Of a DNA stretch of 33,077 nucleotides, positions 17,606 to 30,907 are shown one piece after another (within the stretch, counting starts at the first letter, position 1; each line of letters opens with the position of its first letter). The stretch is from assembly GCA_016176405.1 (NCBI GenBank), contig JACOXG010000010.1, positions 1 to 33,077 on the forward strand. Reading direction: 5' to 3'. The notes under the pieces are model-generated. The model had not been told where the DNA came from. It searched no databases and saw only the letters and a program-made list of their open reading frames with translations. Origin of the DNA: Candidatus Daviesbacteria bacterium. GTDB lineage: Bacteria > Patescibacteriota > Microgenomatia > Daviesbacterales > UBA10151. The translations under genes were made by a program, and so were the position numbers.

Positions 17606-17796
17606 TGGAATTAATAGAAACATCAGAATATAGTGGATATTTGTTAGAAGACATTAAACAAACTCTTAGTCTGGAAGATTTCCACTGTTTTCAAAAATGG
17701 TTTTTCGGACAAACCGGCGTTATACACAAGGGAAGATTACTTGTATATAAGCAGGATTATGATAATTGGATGAACAATGAGAAAGTCTATGACTAA
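17605..17796 (+). CDS. Hypothetical small protein
   Basis: 63 aa; stop/start overlap with the TSCPD gene. Confidence 0.6.
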   Translation: MELIETSEYSGYLLEDIKQTLSLEDFHCFQKWFFGQTGVIHKGRLLVYKQDYDNWMNNEKVYD

Positions 17797-17815
17797 AAAT
17801 CTTTTTCTTTAGATT

Positions 17816-17824
17816 AGTTATAAT
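17816..17824 (+). promoter_or_regulatory. Putative -10-like element AGTTATAAT upstream of the RNA locus
   Basis: Same 9-mer at 10341-10349 and 29489-29497, all three intergenic; a start ~6 nt downstream would begin the structured RNA at ~17830. Confidence 0.4.
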
Positions 17825-17827
17825 ATA

Positions 17828-17968
17828 TGTTGGTGGAGTATAAAGGCCCAAGGGGGGATAGTTTAAGTAATAAAATATCGTCTTGTGAAGACGAAGATGA
17901 CGGTGAAAGGCCGTCTCCTCGCATGCTTTATACAATAACGAGGCGTCATTACACGCCTACCACCAATA
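17828..17968 (+). ncRNA. Structured RNA with a nested tRNA-His-like fold
   Basis: Closing helix TGTTGGTGG (17828-17836)/CCACCAATA (17960-17968); inner helix GTATAAAG (17838-17845)/CTTTATAC (17926-17933); hairpin AGGCGT/ACGCCT (17941-17958); cloverleaf-like insert 17852-17923. Confidence 0.55.
17852..17923 (+). tRNA. tRNA-His-like (anticodon GTG), degenerate
   Basis: Acceptor GGGGGGA/TCCTCGC with one G-G mismatch; D arm GTTT/AAAT; anticodon arm TCGTC-TTGTGAA-GACGA; T arm GACGG-TGAAAGG-CCGTC with non-canonical T loop. Confidence 0.55.
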
Positions 17969-17972
17969 ACAT

Positions 17973-18055
17973 GCCATAATGGCGAAATGGAAGACGCAGC
18001 AGACTTAAAATCTGTAGAATGAAAATTCATGGAAGTTCGAGCCCTTCTTATGGCA
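17973..18055 (+). tRNA. tRNA-Leu(TAA)
   Basis: Acceptor GCCATAA/TTATGGC; D arm GCG/CGC; anticodon loop CTTAAAA; long variable arm with GAAT-GAAA-ATTC; discriminator A; no encoded CCA. Confidence 0.85.
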
Positions 18056-18086
18056 CTTTTAATCTATCTACAAGGAAAAATTTAAG

Positions 18087-19542: not shown

Positions 19543-19630
19543 AATAATATTTTTTATAGTCTTTTTGGCAGCCATATTGATAATTTCTCTTGATAGTTTA
19601 CCGAAATTAGATTCTATAACTACTCAATGA
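19532..19630 (+). CDS. Single-pass membrane microprotein (32 aa)
   Basis: MKDKIIFFIVFLAAILIISLDSLPKLDSITTQ; ATGA overlap with the IF3 start at 19627; below the ORF-track cutoff. Confidence 0.55.
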   Translation: MKDKIIFFIVFLAAILIISLDSLPKLDSITTQ

Positions 19631-20112
19631 TAAAGCACCTTAAAATAAATTATCAAATCAAAGCCCAAGAAGTTAAGCTAATAAATGAAGAAGGAGAATT
19701 CAAGGGGATACACCCAATACAGCAAGCCTTAAATATGGCTATGGCATCAGGTCTAGATTTAGTTGAAGTATCTCCAGGAACTTGTAAAATTTTAGACTAT
19801 GGGAAATTCATATACGAACAAAAGAAAAAACAGACAAAGCAGAAATTGCAAGATACTTTAGAAATTAGATTGTCTCCCAATATAAATAATCATGATGTAG
19901 AATATAAAATTAAGCATGCAAAAAGAATCCTATCCCGAGGAGACAAAATTAAACTAATTATAGTCTTTAAAGGCCGTCAAATGCAGCATACAGATTTAGG
20001 AATTGGATTATTAAAAACTGTGACTGAAAGGCTTATAGACACAGCTATTTTAGCAGATAATCCAAAATTAGAAGGAAAATATCTAAGTGTTACAGTAGCC
20101 CCGAAAAAGTAA
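19627..20112 (+). CDS. infC: Translation initiation factor IF-3
   Basis: 161 aa; INYQIKAQEVKLINEEGEFKGIHPIQQALNMAMASGLDLVEVSPGTCKILDYGKFIYEQKKKQ and GDKIKLIIVFKGRQMQHTDLGIGLL...APKK align across both IF3 domains. Confidence 0.95.
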   Translation: MIKHLKINYQIKAQEVKLINEEGEFKGIHPIQQALNMAMASGLDLVEVSPGTCKILDYGKFIYEQKKKQTKQKLQDTLEIRLSPNINNHDVEYKIKHAKRILSRGDKIKLIIVFKGRQMQHTDLGIGLLKTVTERLIDTAILADNPKLEGKYLSVTVAPKK

Positions 20113-29707: not shown

Positions 29708-30907
29708 ATGATTAATTTACTATATGATCTACAGCTAAGCGTATTAGACTCATTAGATGACGGGAATTTTATTATGACTACGGACTCTAATGTAAATGTA
29801 GCCACTGTATTGATAAAAAATTTACTTAATTTGTCTAATAACATAAAAATTTATGTTTTAGTGCCGCCAAAGTCTAAAATCCTAAACTTTAAAAATTATT
29901 TATTAAGTGACATACAATCTTCCAATTTAGACTTTATTGAGTACAAATATTATGGAAATCCGTTCGTAGATAGGATGTCCTTTTTTAGTCGAGATTTAAT
30001 TCAATCTCTGAAGAACTTGAAAGTTGATATTGTCTATACTAATGATCCATGCAAAGTTCTGGGGTATAAGACAGTGCTATATAGTCTATTATCAAAACCG
30101 GTTCCAGTGATGTCCAGAAATCACTGGGTGACCGGAAAGACAGACTATAAGGTTCCACAATACATTGACTTTGCTCTTAGACAATGCGAAGGAGCTTTGT
30201 ATTCTGATAATGCTACTTTCAATTCAAAATTTGCTGTCGATTCATTCTTATATAATGCAGAACAATACTTGAATAAAGAGACGATAGAGTCACTGTCTAA
30301 AAAATTAGATCATATAGAATGTGTAGACATAGATAAAATTGATCAATATAGAACTGATGAAAAGTTTGATGAATTTACTATGATTTTTGCAAATAGACTT
30401 AGTTATTACACTGGATGGAAAGAGACATTAGACGCTATAAATAGACTATGGAAAAGACGAAAAGATTTTCAAGTCATAGTCCCAGACCCTGGAAATAAAT
30501 TCAAACAAGAAGACTTATTTTCTGAATATAATTTTATTAAGACAGTGAATAAAGATACTTGGACTCATGAAGATTACATAAAAACCTGTTGGAAAGTAGA
30601 TGCCTGTATAGGTAACCATAAATATCCGGCTACTTGGGGCGGACTGGCTATAACAGAACCAATGGCAGCGTACAGTATTCCTATTATTCCTAAAAGACAC
30701 GCTTATTTAGAAATGTTTGATTCAGACTCTCATTCTTTTTTTACTGATGAAAATGATCTTATTAGAGCCATTGAATTTTATTTAGACAATAGAGAAATTT
30801 TAGAGAAAGATAAGCTAAGAGCCAGAGCCTTTTGTGAAAAGAATCTTTCACCTCAAAAATTTGCTGAATTTATTTTAGATAAGCTTAATATGCTATGCAT
30901 ATCATAA
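29708..30907 (+). CDS. Glycosyltransferase-like protein (GT-B type)
   Basis: 399 aa; N-terminal MINLLYDLQLSVLDSLDDGNFIMTT; C-terminal TWGGLAITEPMAAYSIPIIPKRHAYLEMF and FCEKNLSPQKFAEFILDKL resemble GT4-type enzymes. Confidence 0.6.
   Translation: MINLLYDLQLSVLDSLDDGNFIMTTDSNVNVATVLIKNLLNLSNNIKIYVLVPPKSKILNFKNYLLSDIQSSNLDFIEYKYYGNPFVDRMSFFSRDLIQSLKNLKVDIVYTNDPCKVLGYKTVLYSLLSKPVPVMSRNHWVTGKTDYKVPQYIDFALRQCEGALYSDNATFNSKFAVDSFLYNAEQYLNKETIESLSKKLDHIECVDIDKIDQYRTDEKFDEFTMIFANRLSYYTGWKETLDAINRLWKRRKDFQVIVPDPGNKFKQEDLFSEYNFIKTVNKDTWTHEDYIKTCWKVDACIGNHKYPATWGGLAITEPMAAYSIPIIPKRHAYLEMFDSDSHSFFTDENDLIRAIEFYLDNREILEKDKLRARAFCEKNLSPQKFAEFILDKLNMLCIS

Follow-up and report, generated by a model that had tools for sequence, protein, structure and literature searches.

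The stretch of DNA analyzed here (hereafter, the window) comprises 33,077 nucleotides (nt) at the start of C21, a phage contig of 109,932 bases in a 0.95-Mb, metagenome-like assembly (GCA_016176405.1, Candidatus Daviesbacteria). Contig C21 encodes tail proteins, DnaB, a primase, a sigma factor and a homologue of translation initiation factor IF-3. Transfer RNA (tRNA) genes are called at four places in the window, and another is called at 79 kb of the contig. Our subject is a 141-nt element at positions 17828-17968 of the window, in which a domain resembling tRNA-His is enclosed by a junction of three helices (P1, P2 and P3). This element almost certainly belongs to a large family of structured phage noncoding RNAs that is absent from Rfam. 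The sequence motif of the junction occurs once on contig C21.

All parts of the element lie on the plus strand. The 5′ strand of P1 (UGUUGGUGG, 17828-17836) pairs with the 3′ strand at the opposite end (CCACCAAUA, 17960-17968) to form a 9-bp helix found by folding, and in relatives the P1 strands differ in sequence yet stay paired. A single A (J1/2, 17837), replaced by AC in the closest relatives (loci L352-L354), leads to the 5′ strand of P2 (GUAUAAAG, 17838-17845). Together with its 3′ strand (CUUUAUAC, 17926-17933), it forms an 8-bp helix supported by the fold, by shuffles and by covariation. Within P2 lies the tRNA-like domain (17852-17923), with the anticodon GUG (His) in the loop UUGUGAA, and a UG linker (17924-17925; a conserved UGC in relatives) joins its acceptor 3′ strand to the 3′ strand of P2. 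Comparison with relatives also delimits the joining strand J2/3, AAUAACG (17934-17940), and a single A, J3/1 (17959). Between them stands the hairpin P3, AGGCGU-CAUUAC-ACGCCU (17941-17958, stem 17941-17946/17953-17958), whose stem sequence is invariant and whose loop is variable. Positions 17934-17959 fit the family motif UAANNACG-AGGCGU-CNNNNC-ACGCCU-A, where UAANNACG is the consensus of J2/3. Outside the RNA, 4 nt downstream, a tRNA-Leu(TAA) gene is called by both ARAGORN and Rfam (17973-18056, plus strand).

The helices and the nested fold were confirmed. Every helix of the original prediction, which had been made from the letters of the sequence, is present, and the unconstrained minimum-energy fold of 17828-17968 reproduces P1, P2 and P3 (−50.2 kcal/mol, z = −3.9), an energy equalled by one of 200 shuffles. 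Dinucleotide shuffling of the 160 nt preceding the motif yielded a P1 of 9 bp or more next to a P2 of 8 bp or more, arranged as in the element, once in 20,000 trials. By itself, the P1 of the window is modestly unusual, its own 3′ strand being better than 96% of foreign strands. The outer frame is a three-way junction, and here the original prediction went astray: it had described an outer tRNA-like frame, with an acceptor-like helix, a T-arm-like hairpin and a topology recalling that of transfer-messenger RNA (tmRNA). In the window the supposed acceptor is P1, a variable helix of the junction, and the supposed T-arm is the invariant hairpin AGGCGU CNNNNC ACGCCU, which is not a T-arm. No tmRNA was detected by ARAGORN or Rfam in the window or its relatives (no search was made for a tag reading frame). 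Hence, for want of support from either program, the outer frame was rejected both as a second tRNA and as a tmRNA. The likeness to tmRNA consists of tRNA-like parts joined to other helices, but the topology of the window differs.

The description of the inner part as a cloverleaf with anticodon GTG proved accurate. Positions 17852-17923 match the tRNA family of Rfam (RF00005) with 41.1 bits, compared with a gathering score of 29 bits, and ARAGORN calls tRNA-His(GTG). The likeness to tRNA extends over the inner 72 of the 141 nt; the differences are P2, which closes the domain on both sides, and degenerate elbow loops. The D-loop (AAGUAAUA) lacks GG and the T-loop reads UGAAAGG in place of UUCRANY, departing from the canonical tRNA elbow. 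The acceptor is mismatched (G-G at 2:71), no CCA is encoded beside it, and the tRNA score is the lowest among 42 tRNA matches in the assembly. A permissive Rfam scan of 17780-18080 yielded two tRNAs and one sub-threshold chance match, and nothing else.

Relatives of the element were found mainly through the hairpin. A blastn search with 153 nt left most of the length unmatched; its matches, of about 23 nt at and around the hairpin, fell in unannotated gaps of jumbo phages, mostly within tRNA clusters; those of Erwinia phages have a P1/P2 frame around a tRNA-like body. With its flanks, the hairpin (UAANNACGAGGCGUC-NNNN-CACGCCUA; search pattern, ACGAGGCGTC-NNNN-CACGCCTA) recurs in at least 120 viral contigs. 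Named phages with the motif include Erwinia and Pseudomonas jumbo phages, the lambdoid phages CUS-3 and IME10, and Arthrobacter and Rhodococcus phages, and the pattern is also found in Acinetobacter SR and Pseudomonas D6. A survey of 264 Gb of bacterial genomes revealed 23 stretches with the motif, compared with about 8 expected by chance (an estimate based on 18 fixed bases). Whole or partial, the CUS-3 version is present in 360 of 5,426 E. coli genomes, 116 of these matching the greater part of the query sequence, and none of the 15 best matches listed is annotated. The distribution is biased towards viruses and towards tRNA clusters: 39 of 109 motif loci have a tRNA no more than 1 kb away, compared with 9 of 115 control points taken from these contigs. 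An exact search for the P1/P2 pattern found nothing, and the whole-phage relatives identified through neighboring proteins all lack the motif, most of them lacking tRNAs as well.

Three layouts of one module can be distinguished, and two of them are circular permutations. In layout W, that of the window, P1 is open and the body lies within P2. In layouts T and T′ the tRNA-like domain is placed 5′ of the 3′ strand of P2 and P1 is closed by a loop, as in a circular permutation of W. In layout E (CUS-3, L198 and L119), an outer tRNA-like frame is present, its anticodon arm prolonged by P1; a frame of the kind originally predicted does therefore exist, in these loci and not in the window. A tRNA-like domain is often attached, be it nested in P2 (the window, the Erwinia phages and L352-L354), 5′ of P2, or around the module. 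The closest relatives of the window came from a stricter pattern, which retrieved L095, L176 and L187; extended, these became L352-L354. All three have a window-type P1, an 8-bp P2, a tRNA-like domain in which no tRNA was detected, and UGC before the 3′ strand of P2, and unconstrained folding of L353 gives the window-type layout (z = −4.3). As a separate observation, a second conserved element, the heptamer UAAUCAG, lies just 5′ of the 5′ strand of P1 in the T′ and E layouts (alignment A3; L087, L014, L119, L125 and L163) and is absent from the window.

The decisive support for the outer helices is the comparative evidence from these relatives. At many loci a strand upstream is complementary to the bases directly 3′ of the motif, often with 9-13 perfect pairs of unrelated sequence (for example, GGGCTGGTCGGAG/CTCCGACCAGCCC). 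P1 pairing exceeded the 95% level of foreign 3′ strands at 39 of 111 loci, about 5.5 being expected. In the T′ set, 20 of 29 pairs are changed on both sides, and covariation (0.723, compared with 0.197 ± 0.033) was reached by none of 500 shuffles. Pairs with double changes number 10 in the T set and 9 in the class C set, which has another body. In the window-type set (the window, L352-L354 and two Erwinia phages), all 20 pairs are kept in the six sequences, 12 pairs show double changes, and covariation is 0.813 compared with 0.237 after shuffling (0 of 500), figures that are optimistic because the set is small and hand-registered and its strands were chosen by pairing. Controls in which strands were slid lowered covariation to 0.05-0.27. 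The window's P2 5′ strand covaries with AAGAUAAG, AAGGUAAG, AUAGAAAG, CUUUAGGG and CCUUAGGG in relatives. The sequences of P1 and P2 differ almost everywhere while pairing is retained; the P3 stem does not vary in the T′, T and class C sets, which were gathered by P3 sequence. A covariance model (R1) built from T members alone found the window with 30.6 bits (E = 2.3e-7 in the window). The T model matched 6 of 380 genomes of the host phylum, a count too small for a core cellular RNA of that phylum, and this identity was rejected. A nested structured RNA with a tRNA-like insert is thus borne out, and the outer helices, for which covariation had been proposed as a check, are real and covarying.

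The bodies carried by the module are tRNA-like domains with abnormal anticodon arms, plus no fewer than three further types. Among the tRNA-like domains of class T (L103, L122, L138, L177 and L192), the insert in the anticodon arm seems to consist of two hairpins with the conserved loops UACUAGUUAA and UGAUCA on varying stems. In lambdoid phages, the gap between genes Q and S (L213:1300-1620, L240, L241 and L243-L245) contains an unannotated tRNA-like frame with acceptor, D-arm and T-arm, and its anticodon arm is wholly different among close phages. The module occupies this gap in CUS-3 and is absent from HK629, E212, HK75, Klebsiella 6 and lambda. Lambda itself retains a weak version of the frame.

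Comparison with known RNA classes agrees with the original prediction, which had recognized none: Rfam 15 leaves the module unmatched in the window and in 12 representative loci, and the tRNA-like parts alone match. An account limited to the inner part, which the prediction had also contemplated, holds for Rfam, but the outer part has a large set of relatives of its own. No description of the junction RNA was found in open-access papers, and the subscription literature could hold one. Judged by sequence and Rfam models, the nearest known kinds are GOLLD/ROOL and Y RNAs, and the junction RNA falls outside both. GOLLD and ROOL are phage and prophage RNAs of unknown function near tRNA islands, and in GOLLD a conserved 3′ region contrasts with a variable 5′ region, tRNAs are sometimes linked, and phage tRNA islands are among the settings (PMC12286853). 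However, many GOLLD members exceed 800 nt, while the junction RNA spans about 100-250 nt with one invariant hairpin, and the Rfam 15 models of GOLLD and ROOL found no match at E ≤ 1 in the window or at E ≤ 0.5 in relatives. The Y RNA YrlA (RF02553) shares with the junction RNA a helix formed by the RNA ends and a tRNA-like module, and its genes adjoin rtcB, as do a few junction loci. Its model scored above the cut-off in none of 49 records and in none of the 12 representative loci, the weak matches being largely ordinary tRNAs. Since the covariance model fails and a TROVE/Ro60 gene was found in just 1 of 50 motif-bearing records, identity with bacterial Y RNAs was rejected. A TROVE/Ro60-like protein (G154:44724-45407) is encoded on the phage contig of locus L116, where tRNAs are called at least 36 times alongside a junction RNA. 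Length (about 120-140 nt) and setting, a phage tRNA cluster, are shared by the stable T4 RNAs rnaC and rnaD (species 1 and 2); the junction motif is absent from both, and identity with them was rejected. T4 rnaC (L212, T4 70908-71046) ends in a T-arm-like CCGGGTTCGAATCCCGG and has a tRNA-like look. Mimicry of, or antisense pairing to, E. coli rRNA was also rejected, as no match extends beyond a 9-mer.

The best explanation of the whole, which we hold with somewhat less than even confidence, is a new family of phage noncoding RNAs in which a constant junction presents a tRNA-mimicking body as a decoy or platform. The constant part comprises the variable helices P1 and P2, the joining strand UAANNACG and the invariant hairpin P3. 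The changeable part is the body mounted on P2, in the window a degenerate tRNA-His-like domain joined through UG to the P2 3′ strand. An invariant stem, a variable loop and an invariant joining strand suggest a docking surface for a protein or an RNA, and the surface made by P3 and J2/3 is probably the binding site of a conserved factor. Such a partner probably belongs to the host, since no phage partner gene recurs. Because the acceptor end enters P2 after two bases, normal charging of the tRNA-like domain is unlikely. By closing the RNA ends and the acceptor end, the junction would allow the domain to persist as a mimic of tRNA; its likeliest role would be that of a decoy or platform for proteins that act on tRNA, such as anticodon nucleases and repair or modification enzymes. 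A precedent for the decoy is YrlA, a tRNA mimic encoded beside RtcB whose tRNA-like domain may inhibit an anticodon nuclease (PMC7790460). This mechanism is tentative and has only a minority chance of being correct.

Several observations weigh against a tRNA-mimicking decoy or platform. In many members (classes B, C and D) the body is not recognizably tRNA-like. A few genomes of the host phylum, among the candidate phyla, contain stand-alone copies of the module without a tRNA-like body (L233, 2001-2117; L345; L347). The copy in L233 lies in Ca. Kaiserbacteria between cysteine-desulfurase-like and PaaX-like genes, both named by eye; by inspection, promoter-like sequence was seen upstream of L233 and L345, and terminator-like hairpins downstream of all three. 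Because such copies exist, the module probably functions as an RNA by itself, and tRNA mimicry cannot be its whole function. In addition, because complementarity served to place the P1 and P2 strands, the numbers of pairs in small sets are inflated. RtcB speaks for the link to tRNA but is not a general partner of the element. At 6 of some 129 motif loci, and at none of 90 other loci, the same strand carries an rtcB gene no more than about 2 kb away, the RtcB proteins being divergent, and contig C21 encodes the sole RtcB RNA ligase of the assembly (C21:96008-97105; L260, L264). However, in the reverse direction none of the 80 viral rtcB loci searched carries the motif, and among 72 genes downstream of the motif a Pfam scan identified RtcB in 3 only and no dominant family, so that the link must be considered weak. 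It may merely reflect shared tRNA-island settings. A dedicated protein partner was rejected, as the same scan and an all-against-all comparison of neighboring open reading frames returned generic phage genes, with RtcB on top.

Among other explanations, the element might be the precursor of an ordinary phage tRNA-His, with P1-P3 as a processing scaffold that presents it to RNase P, RNase III or a similar enzyme. The inner tRNA match with its His anticodon loop, the tRNA-Leu 4 nt away and the location of relatives in tRNA clusters fit this idea. We consider it unlikely, however, as the match is the weakest in the assembly, with a mismatched acceptor and noncanonical D- and T-loops; besides, the enclosed domain of L352-L354 goes undetected as a tRNA, and the same module occurs elsewhere with non-tRNA bodies or none. 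Another possibility to which we assign a small chance is an ornate multimeric RNA of the GOLLD/ROOL sort, in which the constant 3′ module would drive RNA-only assembly and the bodies, tRNAs included, would be cargo or linkers. The parallels with GOLLD, namely its conserved and variable regions, linked tRNAs and tRNA-island settings, speak in its favor, and an invariant hairpin with a variable loop in permuted layouts would suit a structural role; but the junction RNA is several-fold smaller and no GOLLD or ROOL model matches it.

A reading about as improbable as the multimeric RNA is that of an ancient mobile or selfish RNA module with several permuted gene layouts, which would insert into or capture tRNA genes and would be circular, catalytic or self-assembling in phages of very different hosts, with the invariant hairpin as active or assembly site. 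Less probable still is a circular or spliced RNA, in which permuted genes would encode one RNA whose ends are joined by a ligase (RtcB) or autocatalytically. Window-type and T/T′-type genes are indeed circular permutations of the same junction, and RtcB adjoins some loci and is encoded on the window's contig. On the other hand, the motif is missing from all viral rtcB loci surveyed, the stand-alone copies resemble ordinary linear transcripts, and RtcB requires 5′-OH ends, which RNase P does not make. Lastly, a tmRNA-like RNA acting in trans-translation is highly improbable and already disfavored: in the lambdoid layout, where a tRNA-like frame has the module in its anticodon arm, the arrangement is formally tmRNA-like, but no tmRNA is detected, the acceptor of the window lacks an encoded CCA, and P3 is not a T-arm.

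Between phages whose hosts range from Erwinia, Pseudomonas, E. coli, Arthrobacter and Rhodococcus to uncultured organisms, the hairpin sequence of the junction RNA is essentially constant, although all its other helices have changed in sequence; the module must therefore be under strong functional constraint. Even so, no annotation marks it in those public records of phages and E. coli that were examined. Through this family, phage tRNA islands are connected with a kind of RNA that does not serve codon decoding, and a ready set of model phages is available in which to seek its partner.

Two other genes of the window deserve mention. The phage-encoded translation initiation factor IF-3 (19627-20112) has both Pfam domains, and a glycosyltransferase (29708-30907) shows a weak match to the N-terminal domain of tRNA-queuosine mannosyltransferase.
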